Positions 5,402 through 31,539 of a stretch of 64,000 bases of DNA are shown here, in pieces. The stretch lies in the NCBI RefSeq assembly GCF_009649175.1, contig NZ_WJPO01000016.1:1-64000 (forward strand), in the 5' to 3' direction. Position numbers and translations under genes: made by a program. Within the stretch, counting starts at the first letter, position 1. Every line of letters begins with the position of its first letter. The notes under the pieces were generated by a model that was not told the DNA's origin, did no database searches, and saw nothing but the letters and a program-made list of their open reading frames with translations. Origin of the DNA: Rhodovulum strictum. Lineage in GTDB: Bacteria > Pseudomonadota > Alphaproteobacteria > Rhodobacterales > Rhodobacteraceae.

Positions 5402-6544
5402 ATGATCCGGCAAATCCTGATTTCCGCGGCCGTGATCGGCTGCACAATCGCGCTCTGGATCGTCTTCGTTCCGTCGGCGCGGCCGATGCTGGACCGGCTG
5501 GGCGTGCTGTCTCTGTTCGGGATCGAGGCGACGGCGCCCGGTCCGAACGCAGCCGATACAAGGCGCGGCGGGGCCGTCGCGGTCGTGGTCGAGCCGGTGA
5601 CCGAGGGGCGGGTCAGCGACCGGGTGGCAGCCATCGGCGACGGGCGGGCGCTGCGTACGGTGAATGTCCGCGCGCGGGTGGCCGGCGAGGTGGTCGAGAT
5701 CGGCATCGCGGACGGCACCTTTGTCGAACAAGGCAGCCTGATCCTGCGGCTTGAGGACGAGGCCCAGCGGATCGCGGTCGAGCGGGCCCGGCTGATGCTG
5801 GAGGATGCCCGCGACGAGGCGGCGCGGTTGGTCCGGCTGGAAACCACGGGTGCCGTGACCGAGGTCAGCCGCCGGGCTGCCGATCTGGCGCTGCGCACGG
5901 CCGAACTGGCGCTGCGCGAGGCGGAATTCGCTCTGGAACAGCGGCGCGTTCTGGCGCCGATTTCGGGCTGGGCCGGGGTGCTGGATCTGGCCGCGGGCGA
6001 CAGCATTTCGGCGCAGGACATGGTGGTGACGCTGACCGACCGCTCGCAGATCCTGCTGGATTTCCGGGTGCCCGAGCGCGTGGTGGGCCAGATCACGCCC
6101 GGCATGGCGCTGGAGGCGCGGCCGCTGGCGACGCCGGGCAATGTTCTGGCAGGTCAGGTGCAGGCGGTGGACAATGTGGTGGACCCGGCCAGCCGCACGT
6201 TGCGGGTGCAGGGGCGGCTTGCAAATGACGCCGACAAGCTGCGGGCGGGCATGGCGTTCGAGGTGGTGCTGCGCTTTCAGGGCGAGGTGCTGCCCTCGGT
6301 CGATCCCTTGTCGGTGCAATGGTCCGCGGACGGTTCCTATGTCTGGGTGCTGCGCGACGACCGGGCGGAACGTGTGCCGGTGACGATCCGCCAGCGCAGC
6401 GCCGATGCGGTGCTGGTCGAGGCGGCGCTGGAGATCGGCGAAAAGGTCGTGGTCGAGGGGGTGCAGATGCTGCGGCCCGGGGCCGAAGTGCGGATCGTGG
6501 CCCCGCAGGCCGCGCTGGCCGGGGAAGCCGCCGCACCGCTTTAG
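5402..6544 (+). CDS. RND efflux periplasmic adaptor (membrane fusion protein)
   Basis: The 380-residue protein has an N-terminal membrane anchor (about 1-25), a lipoyl/barrel-sandwich domain (VNVRARVAGEVVEIGIADG), an alpha-helical hairpin rich in Ala, Arg and Glu (about 115-175), and a beta-barrel and membrane-proximal region ending in GEKVVVEGVQML. This is the HlyD/AcrA-type adaptor that links an inner-membrane RND pump to an outer-membrane channel. The ATG at 5402 puts the anchor at the N-terminus; an open extension to 5330 lacks sense. The pump gene follows 15 bp after the stop, so the two form an operon. No outer-membrane channel gene is nearby. Confidence 0.9.
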   Translation: MIRQILISAAVIGCTIALWIVFVPSARPMLDRLGVLSLFGIEATAPGPNAADTRRGGAVAVVVEPVTEGRVSDRVAAIGDGRALRTVNVRARVAGEVVEIGIADGTFVEQGSLILRLEDEAQRIAVERARLMLEDARDEAARLVRLETTGAVTEVSRRAADLALRTAELALREAEFALEQRRVLAPISGWAGVLDLAAGDSISAQDMVVTLTDRSQILLDFRVPERVVGQITPGMALEARPLATPGNVLAGQVQAVDNVVDPASRTLRVQGRLANDADKLRAGMAFEVVLRFQGEVLPSVDPLSVQWSADGSYVWVLRDDRAERVPVTIRQRSADAVLVEAALEIGEKVVVEGVQMLRPGAEVRIVAPQAALAGEAAAPL

Positions 6545-6559
6545 CGAAAGGAACGCGCC

Positions 6560-9500
6560 ATGCTGGAGGAAGCGACACGCGCCGCCGAGGGAGGAGGCCC
6601 CGCGCTGTTCGTGCGCCGGCCGATCCTGGCGCTGGTGGTCTCGGCCCTGATCGTGCTGGCGGGGTTTGCGGCGCTGTTCGGCGTCGAGGTGCGCGAATTG
6701 CCGAATGTGGACCGCCCCGTGGTCACCGTCACCACCGATTTCCAGGGCGCCGCTCCCGAGACCATCGACCAGGAAATTACCGGCCGGATCGAGGGCGCGG
6801 TGGGGCGGGTCGCGGGCGTGCGCTCGATTTCCTCGAACTCGCGCTTCGGGCGCAGCCGGGTGACGGTGGAATTCGCCGAAAGCGTCGATATCGACGTGGC
6901 CGCGACCGATATCCGCGATGCGGTGGCCCGGGTCGAAAGCCAGCTTCCGACCGGCGCGGATGCGCCGCGCGTGGTCAAGGCCGATGCCGATGCCCAGCCG
7001 GTGATGCGGATTGCCGTCACCTCGCCCCGGCGCAGCGCGCAGGAACTGACGCGGATCGTCGAGGACCGGGTGCTGGACCGCGTGATCTCGGTCGAGGGGG
7101 TGGCGGATGTGCGCGTCTATGGCGAGCGCCAGCCGATCTTTCGCGTCGATATCGACCAGGCGGCGCTGGCCAGCCGCGGGCTGACGCTGGCCGACATGGC
7201 GCGCGCGCTGTCGGATGCAGGCTTCAACGCTGCGGCGGGCGATCTGGAAGGATCGCGCCAGTCGATCAATGTGCGCACGACGGCGATGGTCGCCTCGCCC
7301 GAGGCGTTCGAGGATCTGCGCATCGCGCCCCATGTCGAGATCCGCGACGTGGCCAGCGTGACGCTGGGCCCCGCGCCGAACGAGACGATCCTGCGCGCGA
7401 ACGGGCAGACCGGAATCGGGCTGGGGGTGATCCGGCAGGCGGGCAGCAACACGCTGGACATCTCGAAGAACGTGCGCGCGGTGGTGGCAGAGCTGGACCG
7501 CACGCTGCCCGAGGATCTGGAAATCTTCGTCACGTCGGATGATGCGGTCTTCGTCAATGGCGCCATCGCCGAGGTGCTCAAGACGCTGGGGCTGGCCATC
7601 GCGATCGTGGTGGCGGTGATCTTCCTGTTCCTGCGCGATGCACGCGCCACGCTGATCCCCGCGCTGACCATGCCGGTCGCGCTGATCGGGACGCTGGCGG
7701 CGATCTACATGGTGGGCTTTTCGGTCAATATCCTGACGCTGCTGGCGCTGGTGCTGGCGACGGGTCTGGTGGTGGATGATGCGATCGTGGTGCTGGAAAA
7801 CATCGTCCGTCGCCGGGGCGAGGGGATGGGGCCGCGCGCCGCCGCCGTGCTGGGCACCAAACAGGTGTTCTTTGCCGTGGTGACGACGACGGCGACGCTG
7901 GCCGCGGTCTTCGTGCCGCTGTCCTTCCTGCCCGGACAGGCGGGGGGGCTGTTCCGCGAATTCGGCTTCACGCTGGCGATTGCGGTCGGGATCTCGTCGC
8001 TGGTGGCGCTGACGCTGTGTCCGGTGCTGGCCAGCCGGCTGCTGACGGCCGGGACCGGGCGCACCGGGCGCGGGCCGGTTGCCTGGCTGGGCGCCATGCT
8101 GGCCGGATTCTATGCCCGCTCGCTGCGCTGGGCGCTGGCGATGCCCCTTGTCGTGGTGCTGGTCGCGGTGCTGTTCGCGGTCACGGCCGTTCTGGTTGCC
8201 GGGGGCATACGGCAGGAACTGACCCCGCGCGAGGATCGCGCGGTGGCGCTGTTGCGGGTCAGCGCGCCGCAGGGCGTGTCGCTGGACTACACCCAGCAGA
8301 AGATGCGCGCGATCGAGGACGCGGTGGCCCCGCTGCGCGCCTCGGGCGAGATTGCCAATGTGTTCTCGATTGCCGGGATGGGCGGGGACAATGCGGGCTT
8401 CATGGTTTTCACGCTGGCGAAATGGCAGGAGCGCGCACGCAGCCAGGACGAGATCGTGGCCGAGATCAATGGCAAGCTGCGCCAGATCGTCGGCGTGCGC
8501 GCCTTTGCGATCCAGCCCAATTCGCTGGGCATTCGCGGGGCAGGCCGGGGCCTGAGTTTCGCGATCACGGGCGACAGTTACGAAAGCCTGTCCGATCTGG
8601 CCGAGCGGCTGGTCGAACGGATGCAGGACGAGCCCGCCTTTGGCGAGGTGCAACTGGAATACGAGACCACCCAGCCGCAGCTTTTCGTCGAGATCGACCG
8701 CATCCGCGCCGCCGATCTGGGCATCGACATCACCGGGTTGGGCGATGCGCTGCGCGCGATGCTGAACGGGCGCACGGTGGGGTCCGTCTTCATCGGCGAC
8801 CAGAGCTTCGACATCCAGATGCTGTCGAGCGCGAACCCGGTGAACGATCCGGGCGATCTTCAGAACATCTTCGTGCGCACGGGCGACGGGCAGATGGTTC
8901 CGATGTCGAGCTTCGTGCATCTGGAGGAACGCCCGGTCGCCCCGGAACTGGACCGCGAAAATCAGGGCCGGGCGGTCAAGATCGCCGCCAGCCTGTCGCC
9001 CGAGCTGGGGCTGGGCGATGCGCTGTCCCGGGTCGAACTGCTGGCCGCCGACCTGATGGAGGAACAGAACCGCATCGTACCGCTGGGCGAGGCGGCGACG
9101 CTGGACCAGACCAATGCCGGGCTGCTGATCATCTTCGGCTTTGCCATCGCGGTGGTGTTCCTGGTGCTGGCGGCGCAATTCGAAAGCTTCGTCTCGGCCA
9201 TCGTGGTCATGGCGACGGTGCCGCTGGGATTGGCCTGCGCGGTCTTTGCGCTGATGCTGACAGGGCAAAGCCTGAACGTCTATTCGCAGATCGGGCTGGT
9301 GATGCTGATCGGGATCATGGCCAAGAACGGCATCCTGATCGTCGAGTTCGCGAACCAGTTGCGCGACGGCGGCGCCAGCGTGGCGCAGGCCGCGCAGGAT
9401 GCCGCGACGATCCGTCTGCGGCCGGTGATGATGACCATGGCCTCGACCGTGCTGGGCGGCGTGCCGCTGATCCTGTCCTCGGGCGCGGGCGCCGAGGCGC

Positions 9501-27864: not shown

Positions 27865-28248
27865 ATGAACCAGCCGACAGCCGCCATTCCCCAGCGCGAC
27901 GGCACCTCGGGCTCCGAGGACGACCCCGATGGGCTGACCGAATTCGCCCTGGAAACGCTGCTGTCCAGCCCCGATGGCTGGCGCCGATTCGCCCGCGATG
28001 CCGCCCGGCGCTGGCCCGAGTTGCCGCCGCTGGCCATCGTCTTTGCACTGGTCAATGCCTCGGCCCAGATCGAGGCGATCTTTGCCGAAGGCAGCCCCGC
28101 GCGCGTTTCGGCCCAGCATGGGTTTCGCGTGGCCGGGCTGATCTCGGCCGACCTTTACGCAATCGAGATGCTGGGCCTTGACCGGTCGCGGGCCGCCGAT
28201 CTGCTTGCCTATTGGCGGGCCCATGACGATTATTTCCTGACGCTCTGA
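27865..28248 (+). CDS. Small soluble protein of unknown function upstream of deoC
   Basis: The protein has 127 residues and an acidic, probably disordered N-terminus (about 1-25). A helical domain follows with WRRFARDAARRWPELPPLAI, FALVNASAQIEAIFAEGS and LLAYWRAHDDYFLTL. No family is recognised and there are no membrane segments. The stop is 11 bp before the deoC GTG, so it may share that transcript. Codon use and composition match the neighbours, which supports a real gene. Confidence 0.65.
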   Translation: MNQPTAAIPQRDGTSGSEDDPDGLTEFALETLLSSPDGWRRFARDAARRWPELPPLAIVFALVNASAQIEAIFAEGSPARVSAQHGFRVAGLISADLYAIEMLGLDRSRAADLLAYWRAHDDYFLTL

Positions 28249-28259
28249 GCCACGCCGCC

Positions 28260-29261
28260 GTGCCTCCGGACGCCCCCCGAACCGAAACCTTGCCCCCCGC
28301 AGCACCGCCGCAGCCGAGCCACACGCGCAATCCGGGCCTGCCGCTGGATCCGGGCTGGCTGCGGGCGACGCGGGTCAACCGTCCGGCGGCCGAGCAATAT
28401 TGCGCCAGCCTGCCCGGCCGTCGGCCGGTGACGGGGGCGCATCGGGCGGCGTGGATGCTGCGGACGGTCGGGCTGATCGACCTGACGACGCTTGCGGGCG
28501 ATGACACGCCCGGCCGGGTGCAGCGGCTATGTGCCAAGGCGCGCCAGCCGATGCGGGCCGATCTGCTGGCGGCGCTGGGAGTTGTGGGCCTGACCACCGC
28601 GGCCGTCTGCGTCTATCACGAGATGATCGCGCCCGCCCTGGCCGCGCTGCGCGGATCGGGCATCCCGGTTGCGGCGGTATCCACGGGGTTTCCGGCCGGG
28701 CTTTCGCCCATGGCGACGCGGCTGGCCGAGATCGAGGCATCGGTGGCAGCGGGCGCTGCGGAAATCGACATCGTGATCTCGCGCCGCCATGTGCTGCTGG
28801 GCGACTGGGCCGCGCTTTACGACGAGGTGGCCGCCTTTCGCGCCGCCTGCGGACCCGCGCATCTGAAGACGATCCTGGCAACGGGCGAGTTGGGCAGCCT
28901 GACCAATGTCGCGCGTGCAAGCCTTGTGTGCATGATGGCGGGGGCGGATTTCATCAAGACCTCGACCGGCAAGGAGCCGGTGAACGCCACCCTGCCTGTC
29001 GGCCTGACCATGGTCCGCGCGATCCGCGCCTATCACGCGGCAACCGGCCAGCGGGTCGGTTTCAAGCCCGCGGGCGGGATTTCCACGGCGAAGGAGGCGC
29101 TGGTCTGGCTGACGCTCATCAAGGAGGAGTTGGGGGATCGCTGGCTTTCGCCCGACCTGTTCCGCTTTGGCGCCTCGTCGCTGCTGGGCGATATCGAGCG
29201 GCAGATCGAACAGCATGTCACGGGGGCCCATTCGGCCGCGTGGCGGCATCCGATGGGGTGA
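28260..29261 (+). CDS. deoC: Deoxyribose-phosphate aldolase
   Basis: The 333-residue protein splits 2-deoxyribose-5-phosphate into glyceraldehyde-3-phosphate and acetaldehyde during deoxynucleoside breakdown. The Schiff-base lysine is in GADFIKTSTGKEPVNATLPV and the proton-relay lysine in VGFKPAGGIST. FPAGLSP and AAEIDIVISRR are also family landmarks. It is longer than E. coli DeoC because of an N-terminal extension of about 60 residues, as in animal-type DeoC. The start is a GTG; an internal start cannot be excluded. The next gene begins 4 bp after its stop. Confidence 0.95.
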   Translation: MPPDAPRTETLPPAAPPQPSHTRNPGLPLDPGWLRATRVNRPAAEQYCASLPGRRPVTGAHRAAWMLRTVGLIDLTTLAGDDTPGRVQRLCAKARQPMRADLLAALGVVGLTTAAVCVYHEMIAPALAALRGSGIPVAAVSTGFPAGLSPMATRLAEIEASVAAGAAEIDIVISRRHVLLGDWAALYDEVAAFRAACGPAHLKTILATGELGSLTNVARASLVCMMAGADFIKTSTGKEPVNATLPVGLTMVRAIRAYHAATGQRVGFKPAGGISTAKEALVWLTLIKEELGDRWLSPDLFRFGASSLLGDIERQIEQHVTGAHSAAWRHPMG

Positions 29262-29265
29262 TGGG

Positions 29266-31539
29266 ATGGACGTTTCCGACCTGATGCAGACCATGGATTA
29301 TGGCCCCGCCCCCGAAAACCCGGCCGAGGCGCTGGACTGGCTGGCGGGGCACGGGAACCGCTTTGGCCATTTCATCGCGGGCCGGTTCACCACGCCGCGC
29401 GAGGGGGTCGAGGCACGCAACCCCGCCACGGGCGAGGTGCTGGCGATGCTGACCGCCGCAACCGCCGAGGAAGTGGACGAGGCCGTGGCCGCCGCGCGCC
29501 GGGCGCAGCCGAAATGGGCGGGGCTGGGCGGCGCTGCGCGGGCGCGGCATCTGCGCGCGCTGGCCCGACTGATCCGCCAGCGCGCCCGCCTGATTTCGGT
29601 GCTGGAAACGCTGGACAGCGGCCAGCCGATCCGCGAAAGCCGCGAGATGGGCGTGGCGCTGGCCGAACGGCTCTTCCATCACCATGCGGGGCTGGCGCAG
29701 CTTCTGGACAAGGATTGGCCGGGCCATGTGGCACAGGGCGTCAGCGGCCTGATCCTGCCCTCGTCCGCTGCGCTTCTGACGCTGGCATCGCTGGCCGCAC
29801 CCGCGCTTTCGGCGGGGAACACGCTGGTTCTGAAACCCGCCGAACGAACCTCGCTGGGTGCGCTTCTGTTCGCCGATCTCGTACGCGAGGCGGGGTTGCC
29901 CAGGGGGGTCGTCAATGTCGTGAACGGTGGCGCGGCGGTGGGCGAATTGCTCGTGGCCCATCCCGGGATCGACGGGATCGGCTTTGCCGGGACGGCCGGT
30001 GTGGGGCGGGCAATCCGGGCGGCAACGGCGGGCAGCGGCAAGGCGCTGGGACTACATCTGGCGTCGAAACCGCCGGTGATCGTCTGCGAGGATGCCGATC
30101 TCGACGCGGCGGTCGAGGGCGCGGTCGAGGCGCTGTGCACCCGTGGCCCGGCTGGCGGCGCGGGGGCGCGGCTGATCCTTCAGGAAGGGATCGCCGGGGA
30201 TTTCCTTGGGCGGCTCAAGGCGCGGATGACCCGGCTGCGGCTGGGCGATCCGCTGGACAAGGGCACCGATATCGGCGCGCTGATCGACGAGGGCCAGCGC
30301 GACCATCTGGCGGCGCTGCTGGCCGAAGGGGCGGCCGAGGGCGAGTTGTTCCAACCCGATGGCCCGCTGCCCGAACGCGGGGCGTTCCATCCGCCAACGC
30401 TGATCTCGGGGCTGGCCCCGGCGTCGCGGCTGATGCAGGCAGAGGTGTTCGGCCCGGTGCTGGTCTCGACCACCTTCCGCACGCCCGCCGAAGCGGTGCA
30501 ACTGGCCAATGACAGCCGCCATGGGCAGGTGGCCAGCCTCTGGTCCGAGACGATTGCCACCGCGCTGGAGCTGGCCCCACGGCTCGCGGCCCGGGTGATC
30601 CGGGTGAACGGAATGACCATGCCGGATGCGGCCGGGTCCGGGGGGCTGATCGACCATCTGCGGCCCGCGCGCAGGGGCAAGCGGCTGAAACCGCCTGCCC
30701 CGCCCCGGCAAGGCGATCCGCTGACGCGGTCCGAACCGCTCTGGATCGGGGGCAAGCGGGTGGCGCCCGGCGGCGGGCAGTCGCGCGCGATCCTTGATCC
30801 GCGCGGGCAAAGGATCGGCCAGGTGGGGCTGGCCACGCGCGAGGATGTCGCGGCGGCGGTCGCGGCTGCGCGCAAGGCGCAACCGGGTTGGGCGACACAG
30901 GGCGCGCCGGCCCGTGCGCAGATGCTGTTCGCCATCGCCGATACCCTGTCGACGCAGGAAGCCGATTTCGCGGACCTGCTGCGGGAAATGACCGGGGCCC
31001 CCAAGGCCGAAGTCGCGGCGGAGGTTGCACTTGGTGTCGAGCGGCTGTTCACCTGGGCCGCCCATGCCGATACGCAGGCGGGCGAGATCGGGCCGGGCCT
31101 TGCGATGCCGCTGGGCGTGATCGGCGCGATCTGCCCGGACGAGGCGCCGCTGCTGGGCCTTGTCTCGGTGCTGGCGCCTGCAATCGCAATGGGCAATGCC
31201 TGCGTGCTGGTGCCCTCGGACCCCTTCCCGCTGGCGGCTATGGCGTTCTGCCGGGTGCTGGAGAGCGCGGGCCTGCCGGGGGGTGTGGTGAACATGATCA
31301 CCGGGGCGCATGCCGCGCTGGCCGAACCGCTGGCCGCGCATATGGATGTCGATGCGGTCTGGTGCTTCTCGTCCTCGGACCTGTCGGCCGGGATCGAACG
31401 TGCGGCGGCGCGCGACCTGAAACGGACCTGGGTCAATCACGGACGCGCCCGCGACTGGTGGGGCGACGAGGGGGAGGACCGCGCGTTCCTCCGCGCGGCC
31501 ACCGAAATCAGGACAATCCGGATCCCCCGGGGCGCCTGA
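29266..31539 (+). CDS. Two-domain ALDH16-like aldehyde dehydrogenase, probable pseudoenzyme
   Basis: The protein has 757 residues. A full ALDH fold (about 1-470) is followed by a second, truncated ALDH NAD-binding half (about 491-757), the arrangement of ALDH16. NAD-site features remain in domain 1 (LVLKPAERTSLGALLFADLV; AEVFGPVLV). The three catalytic positions are lost. The oxyanion PWNFP motif reads PSSAA (Ser166-Ser167), the general-base Glu of ELGGK is His264 (LHLASK), and the nucleophilic Cys of NQGQxC falls on Gly297/Gly298 (CTRGPAGGAGAR). Domain 2 stops before its own catalytic loop. Coupling to deoC suggests a partner or regulatory role with the aldolase. The ATG at 29266 has GGGGTG upstream. 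Confidence 0.88.
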   Translation: MDVSDLMQTMDYGPAPENPAEALDWLAGHGNRFGHFIAGRFTTPREGVEARNPATGEVLAMLTAATAEEVDEAVAAARRAQPKWAGLGGAARARHLRALARLIRQRARLISVLETLDSGQPIRESREMGVALAERLFHHHAGLAQLLDKDWPGHVAQGVSGLILPSSAALLTLASLAAPALSAGNTLVLKPAERTSLGALLFADLVREAGLPRGVVNVVNGGAAVGELLVAHPGIDGIGFAGTAGVGRAIRAATAGSGKALGLHLASKPPVIVCEDADLDAAVEGAVEALCTRGPAGGAGARLILQEGIAGDFLGRLKARMTRLRLGDPLDKGTDIGALIDEGQRDHLAALLAEGAAEGELFQPDGPLPERGAFHPPTLISGLAPASRLMQAEVFGPVLVSTTFRTPAEAVQLANDSRHGQVASLWSETIATALELAPRLAARVIRVNGMTMPDAAGSGGLIDHLRPARRGKRLKPPAPPRQGDPLTRSEPLWIGGKRVAPGGGQSRAILDPRGQRIGQVGLATREDVAAAVAAARKAQPGWATQGAPARAQMLFAIADTLSTQEADFADLLREMTGAPKAEVAAEVALGVERLFTWAAHADTQAGEIGPGLAMPLGVIGAICPDEAPLLGLVSVLAPAIAMGNACVLVPSDPFPLAAMAFCRVLESAGLPGGVVNMITGAHAALAEPLAAHMDVDAVWCFSSSDLSAGIERAAARDLKRTWVNHGRARDWWGDEGEDRAFLRAATEIRTIRIPRGA

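Follow-up and report, generated by a model that had tools for sequence, protein, structure and literature searches.

Recurrent loss of the ALDH16 active site beside deoC in Rhodovulum and related bacteria

Introduction

Acetaldehyde released by an aldolase can be handed directly to a dehydrogenase, as in DmpFG, an aldolase-dehydrogenase channelling complex in which the aldolase releases acetaldehyde to its paired dehydrogenase. The two-domain ALDH16 of Loktanella sp. (LsALDH16; PDB entries 6mvr, 6mvs, 6mvt and 6mvu) has its nucleophile, as indicated by a PDB title that names the active-site mutant C295A, together with the Trp-Asn pair, the Glu and the FGG motif. Human ALDH16A1, according to a review (PMC10650815), has no catalytic triad at all and acts via protein interactions, with maspardin and, as has been proposed, HPRT1.

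Here, an ALDH16 gene directly following deoC is described from a 64,000-nucleotide stretch of the Rhodovulum strictum genome (3.83 Mb; contig NZ_WJPO01000016.1), referred to as the window. Its product is without the four features of LsALDH16 listed above. Searches of a literature collection that omits most subscription papers showed, among the matches listed, neither a bacterial ALDH16 pseudoenzyme nor a DeoC-ALDH16 signature. Table 1 lists the features of the locus.

Table 1 Features of the deoC-ALDH16 locus in the window (G003, active sister genome; live, catalytically complete ALDH16).
Feature	Position	Strand	Evidence
deoC, long form, 333 aa called from GTG	28260..29261	+	TIGR00126, 137.7 bits vs cut-off 117.3
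DeoC Thr58; Lys in 68/68 live-partner DeoCs (G003 K65)	28431..28433	+	DeoC alignment
DeoC Arg62; Gln in 68/68 live-partner DeoCs (G003 Q69)	28443..28445	+	DeoC alignment
DeoC Gln318; His in 68/68 live-partner DeoCs (G003 H325)	29211..29213	+	DeoC alignment
DeoC His324; Tyr in 68/68 live-partner DeoCs (G003 Y331, C-terminal tail)	29229..29231	+	DeoC alignment
ALDH16 gene, near-certain pseudoenzyme, 757 aa, second of deoC pair	29266..31539	+	PF00171; 6mvr/6mvu/6mvs match; dN/dS
Ser166-Ser167 in place of Trp-Asn (oxyanion)	29761..29766	+	W-N in 40/40 live ALDH16s
KPAE (190-193), NAD-binding Lys/Glu kept	29833..29844	+	ALDH16 alignment
G-T-A-G-V-G (242-247), altered GSTEVG NAD motif, both glycines kept	29989..30006	+	ALDH16 alignment
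His264 at general-base Glu	30055..30057	+	Glu in 40/40 live ALDH16s
Gly297-Gly298 at Cys-Cys pair (nucleophile)	30154..30159	+	Cys-Cys in 40/40 live ALDH16s
EVFG (393-396), with the NAD-ribose Glu and Phe retained	30442..30453	+	ALDH16 alignment
Surroundings of deletion taking out most of FGG-RESGFGREGG	30613..30660	+	Deletions at G003 458 and 462-475
Domain 2, same C-terminal end as in Loktanella ALDH16	30733..31536	+	Sequence alignment; model

Architecture and catalytic residues of the window ALDH16

The first-pass annotation had described an intact frame of 757 residues, and this is confirmed by the absence of internal stops in a direct reading of the frame and by R. tesquicola and R. steppense (G014 and G012), whose proteins are 83% identical and show the same losses. 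These two genomes and that of the window (G000) are referred to as clade A. Two PF00171 matches (29404-30636 and 30799-31443) show that the chain carries a pair of ALDH-like domains, of which the second is shortened. In a phmmer comparison, window residues 1-757 align to residues 2-767 of the Loktanella ALDH16 (6mvr/6mvu), and the predicted model (pLDDT 81) reaches a TM score of 0.90 to 6mvu, 6mvs and 6mvr, with 48% identity in the structural alignment; the next structural matches are single-domain ALDHs, at 0.51-0.55 of the query. Both structure predictions, for the window protein and for one from a second Rhodovulum clade (clade B, see below), were built on alignments that include live relatives, so that some of the model confidence stems from these, most of all in the case of clade B (pLDDT 77.8). 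Judged by alignment and model, the ORF is a full-length ALDH16. Domain 2 had been described as cut before its catalytic loop, and it does end there, but 6mvr stops at the corresponding position, and a short second domain is therefore a trait of ALDH16 and not a truncation.

The possibility that a paralogue had replaced an active copy was rejected, there being no second two-domain ALDH16 in the window's genome. Seven other PF00171 matches in this genome indicate redundancy. The gene is also crossed by GC-rich open frames, antisense or shifted and as long as 462 aa, which are likely artefacts of composition.

The alignment used for the catalytic residues, numbered after G003, holds 40 catalytically complete ALDH16s: six from Rhodovulum, one from G004, 28 from family genomes (the best-scoring 28 of 338), three from Gemmobacter, and those of G227 and G290. 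Trp166, Asn167, Glu264, Cys298 and Cys299 are invariant in all 40. In the window protein, the nucleophilic Cys, the general-base Glu and the oxyanion Asn of an active ALDH16 are replaced by Gly297, His264 and Ser167, respectively, and the loss of all three catalytic residues reported at first pass (Ser-Ser, His264, Gly297/298) thus falls on columns that never vary among these live proteins. Cys291 was considered as a shifted nucleophile and rejected: it stands six residues before Gly297 and aligns with a Trp of the relatives, away from the nucleophile position at which an alignment would have contradicted the annotation. Loop 294-297 of the model has a pLDDT below 50. Most of the FGG-RESGFGREGG motif, which starts at G003 position 460, is deleted as well, a loss that the first-pass annotation had not listed. 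With its catalytic residues absent and its fold kept by prediction, the protein has the hallmarks of an ALDH pseudoenzyme, and we consider this assignment near certain.

Distribution of the loss

Among 16 Rhodovulum genomes searched, the catalytic site is kept in seven (G002, G003, G004, G005, G007, G010, G011). The four genomes of clade B (G006, G008, G013, G015) encode ALDH16 versions of 653-674 residues with deletions running through the Rossmann fold, including that of the NAD motif. In G009 the gene is split by a transposase gene, and G001, a genome that is 99% complete, is without both ALDH16 and deoC, indicating that the pair was lost together. The transposase ORF of G009 lies inside ALDH16 domain 2 (locus L045, about 6130-7940) and is IS1634/IS4-like by frame reading.

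In rpoB trees, which are built on this one gene, clade A is monophyletic (support 99-100) and groups with its active sister G003 (79, 98, 93), while clade B groups with G009 (88, 89, 98) and active lineages lie between A and B. As all three clade A genomes share the catalytic loss (3/3), the loss is clade-wide, which was to be checked by a tree; the same tree upholds the proposal of an independent pseudoenzyme, in so far as this loss arose apart from the family's other losses.

The wider survey covered 394 genomes of the family, which we take to be the Rhodobacteraceae, sampled evenly from a larger group. ALDH16 was found at E <= 1e-90 in 338 of them. A Cys-Cys motif was detected in 333 genomes, a DNA-level count in which not every match was confirmed to lie inside ALDH16; two of these genomes (G016, G072) fall outside the 338. 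Seven ALDH16 genomes are without the motif: four are dead (G000, G044, G061, G312), two are live, and one (G260), in which ALDH16 is cut by a contig end, was assigned neither way. The two live ones, G227 and G290, were rejected as dead since only the exact DNA motif is absent and Cys-Cys is kept (GQLCCAG, GQICCAG). Further dead copies, in G282 and G267, score below the E <= 1e-90 cut-off; dead lineages may therefore be under-counted, as this cut-off misses proteins like those of clade B. Asn and both Cys are gone in all 11 dead rows of the ALDH16 alignment and likewise in G282 and G267; a Glu aligns at the general-base column in the clade B rows of G006 and G015, in a changed context.

Besides clade A, dead ALDH16s directly following deoC thus occur in clade B and in members of five further genera, and in the rpoB tree the dead lineages lie dispersed among live ones. 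The loss is therefore recurrent, with at least four well-separated events (clade A; clade B, including G009 or not; the region of G061, G267 and G312; G282 or G044). Five to seven independent losses appear more likely, because live genera surround G061 and because G282 and G044 fall apart, if weakly. Support for mutual independence of G061, G267 and G312 is moderate in this tree, and the branch leading to G044 is long and its placement weak.

Pairing of ALDH16 with deoC

In the window, the deoC stop codon (29259-29261) is followed by the ALDH16 ATG at 29266, in agreement with the 4 bp spacing given at first pass, and the gap is 4 bp in clade A as a whole. At the five dead loci outside Rhodovulum (G044, G061, G312, G282, G267) it ranges from -4 to 107 bp. 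Of the 28 best-scoring family loci, 27 likewise have deoC 4-427 bp upstream of ALDH16, an ALDH16 with the Cys motif flanks deoC in 30 of 30 further genomes, and the two genes are nearly always neighbours in Rhodovulum where checked. Adjacency is not obligatory, as G103 carries the long deoC and ALDH16 on different contigs.

A 127-aa ORF (27865-28248, +) lies directly upstream of deoC. It matched no Pfam family, and a search of 51 loci returned matches in ten other Rhodovulum loci (62-86% identity) and in two other genera (46-51%); it is an uncharacterised gene of this neighbourhood.

Both genes are present in 337 of the 394 genomes, ALDH16 only in one, deoC without ALDH16 (at E <= 1e-90) in 22 and neither in 34, the absences for 36 of the genomes without ALDH16 and 15 of those without deoC being derived by combining three surveys. 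The ALDH16-only genome (G340) is 70% complete and has a partial long deoC on a contig. Seventeen of the 22 genomes have a clearly better-scoring DeoC with E-values of 4e-65 to 6e-51 (e.g. G089, G226, G278), probably of a short bacterial type, so that there would be two DeoC types with different partners; outside the 82 aligned DeoCs, this split into long and short forms rests on E-values. The remaining five are G165, with a frame of 245 residues, G162, with ALDH16 fragments on another contig, G374, where the contig ends, and G282 and G267. The last two are complete genomes and were rejected as cases of a long deoC alone, a degraded ALDH16 ORF being located directly downstream. As all five resolve, no assembled long deoC without an ALDH16-like ORF was found among the 394 family genomes.

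Correlated changes at the ends of DeoC

The window DeoC belongs to the DeoC family (TIGR00126) and keeps the core motifs FIKTSTGK (with the Schiff-base Lys), EIDIVI and GFKPAGGI. All 13 DeoCs with dead partners retain the FIKTSTGK lysine, the aspartate of E-I-D-[IV]-V-I and the lysine of GxK-[PA]-AGG. They were compared with 68 DeoCs with live partners, 38 of which have inspected ALDH16s and 30 a Cys motif read beside deoC; G374 was left out of the live rows, its contig ending just after deoC, and G103 is absent from the DeoC alignment. Numbered after the aligned G003 protein, K65, H325 and Y331 are present in 68/68 live-partner and 0/13 dead-partner DeoCs, and Q69 in 68/68 and 1/13, respectively.

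More generally, where dead-partner DeoCs depart from live-conserved columns, they do so chiefly in the N-terminal extension and in the C-terminal tail, and the window DeoC has lost 7 of 21 terminal and 0 of 108 core columns. In a leave-one-out comparison of terminal-minus-core loss rates at 97% columns, the live maximum is 0.082 and the dead minimum 0.134; at 90% columns the values are 0.088 and 0.123. The dead row closest to the live range, that of G061, is not far above it (0.134 vs 0.082). Although the 13 dead rows are non-independent (three from clade A, four from clade B), terminal loss is found in every dead lineage. A DeoC tree joins long branches and was taken as a hint only.

A review (PMC8403123) assigns the C-terminal Tyr259 of E. 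coli DERA a part in catalysis and reports that this residue can reach into the active site. A similar distance from the barrel makes it plausible that DeoC Y331 is the equivalent residue, in which case the DeoC of the dead lineages may itself be slower or changed.

On the side of ALDH16, 232 columns are invariant in the 40 live rows and 21 of them are lost in all 13 dead rows, the G009 row covering only the portion before the insertion. Beyond the active site, these 21 include T511, Q520, R522, D524, R551, N552 and N747 of domain 2, positions that form a candidate contact surface. In the 511-524 region the loss in clade B, G282, G267 and part of G061 is by gaps and not by substitutions.

Selection after the loss and possible roles of the retained protein

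The explanation that we favour, with somewhat better than even confidence, is that a hand-over of acetaldehyde from DeoC to ALDH16 was abandoned and ALDH16 was kept as a non-catalytic, DeoC-associated subunit. In active relatives DeoC would release acetaldehyde and the ALDH16 of the adjacent downstream gene would most likely oxidise it, with the N-terminal extension and C-terminal tail of DeoC presumably coupling the two proteins. This coupling would have been given up in clade A and, independently, in several further lineages, where the ALDH16 active site was lost along with DeoC K65, H325 and Y331 and the DeoC core motifs stayed. The strict partition of these three residues between DeoCs with live and dead partners suggests that the hand-over was lost as a unit. 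The acetaldehyde is presumably dealt with by other aldehyde dehydrogenases in the cell. The ALDH16 chain appears to be kept in frame beside deoC under weakened purifying selection, most likely for a role in stability, assembly or regulation, which is the uncertain step of the explanation.

This weakened selection is visible in pairwise NG86 dN/dS. ALDH16 values are 0.37, 0.37 and 0.465 within clade A, where all divergence post-dates the loss, and 0.35-0.41 within clade B, compared with 0.13-0.21 among six active Rhodovulum; those of deoC are 0.16-0.23 in clade A and 0.11-0.19 in clade B. In neutral simulations of one pair, in which the G012 gene was evolved to the G000-G012 distance (60 runs at each of eight settings), mean dN/dS was 0.80-1.13 with 3.1-6.1 stops on average, the lowest run giving 0 stops in two settings. 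Since the observed G000-G012 value of 0.37 is below every neutral run (lowest 0.59), selection persists for this pair. The clade A protein thus seems to be constrained, yet more weakly than in active relatives, its dN/dS being about twice theirs. For clade A, a pseudogene, a sequencing error and a mis-assembly were rejected, as the losses recur in three genomes, without stops and with dN/dS below the simulations.

Alternatively, ALDH16 could be in slow decay, dispensable once other aldehyde dehydrogenases cover acetaldehyde, its frame surviving through weak residual selection (e.g. against toxic misfolding) and because the loss is recent. This is the main rival, to which we give about one chance in three. 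The raised dN/dS fits such a decay, as does rising GC at codon positions 1 and 2, which agrees with relaxation (0.49-0.52 at position 2 in active genes, 0.55-0.56 in clade A, 0.63-0.65 in clade B); so do the large deletions of clade B, the IS insertion in G009, the joint loss of both genes in G001 and the relaxed DeoC termini. The doubled dN/dS, the codon-2 GC, the deletions and the split gene are at the same time signs of relaxation, which count against a retained role. Decay is harder to reconcile with the simulated pair, with ORFs of 608-773 aa that stay open in 12 of the 13 dead genomes (the broken one being G009) and with the constant company, among the 394 genomes, of an ALDH16-like ORF wherever a long deoC is assembled. 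Nor does polarity explain the retention in the window, because the next gene lies on the other strand.

Binding of ALDH16 to the aldolase, proposed at first pass, is indirectly supported by pairing, linkage and the correlated DeoC changes. The same changes could also mean that the coupling was dismantled, and if the lost DeoC termini were the docking surface, the dead ALDH16 may no longer dock.

The annotation had further considered that the protein may sense NAD or acetaldehyde. In such a sensor of NAD(H) or acetaldehyde, domain 1 would bind NAD without catalysis and signal to DeoC. As the annotation had noted, NAD-binding motifs of domain 1 are kept: clade A retains K190, E193, both glycines of GxxxxG (G242 and G247), E394 and F396 (G003 numbering), and its stretch 241-320 has a low pN/pS of 0.17-0.19, calculated from small bins. 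Clade B, in contrast, has deleted the NAD motif and lost the Lys, both Glu and the Phe, and G061, G282 and G267 have lost most of these residues; NAD sensing is therefore not a function shared by the dead ALDH16s, and we regard a sensor as improbable. Least likely of all is that the ALDH16 scaffold has gained another catalytic activity alongside a changed DeoC. This would suit the correlated changes in both proteins, the Glu of G006 and G015 and the altered substrate performance of published E. coli and Klebsiella DERA variants that combine C-terminal Tyr loss with other changes (PMC8403123); against it, the former active site differs between dead lineages.

A more far-reaching version of the non-catalytic subunit can be sketched, which we hold to be speculative and rather less likely than not. 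Long DeoC and ALDH16 would form an acetaldehyde-channelling complex with a coupling code made of K65/Q69 in the N-terminal extension of DeoC, H325/Y331 in its C-terminal tail and the ALDH16 domain-2 patch (T511, Q520, R522, D524, R551, N552, N747). Code and dehydrogenase site would have been lost repeatedly as one, with DeoC still in need of the non-catalytic subunit, and human ALDH16A1 would be a parallel case for which DERA is an overlooked candidate partner.

Comparison with known systems

Repeated loss beside active sisters, with deoC changes that track it, amounts to a natural experiment on ALDH16 without catalysis. It points to candidate contact residues in both proteins, and a non-catalytic role of ALDH16 becomes testable in this two-gene system.

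Close counterparts are the active ALDH16s beside deoC in the same family, which share gene order and architecture with the window and differ in having the catalytic and DeoC terminal residues. LsALDH16 resembles the window protein in its full-length two-domain match and C-terminal end. DmpFG offers a precedent for channelling, although its proteins belong to unrelated families and its dehydrogenase is acylating; for DeoC-ALDH16, channelling is putative. Human DERA is presumably a homologue of the long-form DeoC studied here.

ALDH16 pseudoenzymes are already known in humans. By description the human protein and the dead bacterial ALDH16s are alike as pseudoenzymes, and the accessible part of PMC10650815 mentions no link of ALDH16A1 to DeoC or DERA. 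The suggestion that the window protein had gone deeper into loss than its vertebrate counterpart is not supported, as the human protein is also without the whole triad (PMC10650815). Since active relatives surround the bacterial losses, these are regarded as events distinct from the loss in ALDH16A1, and they bear on what an ALDH16 does without catalysis.
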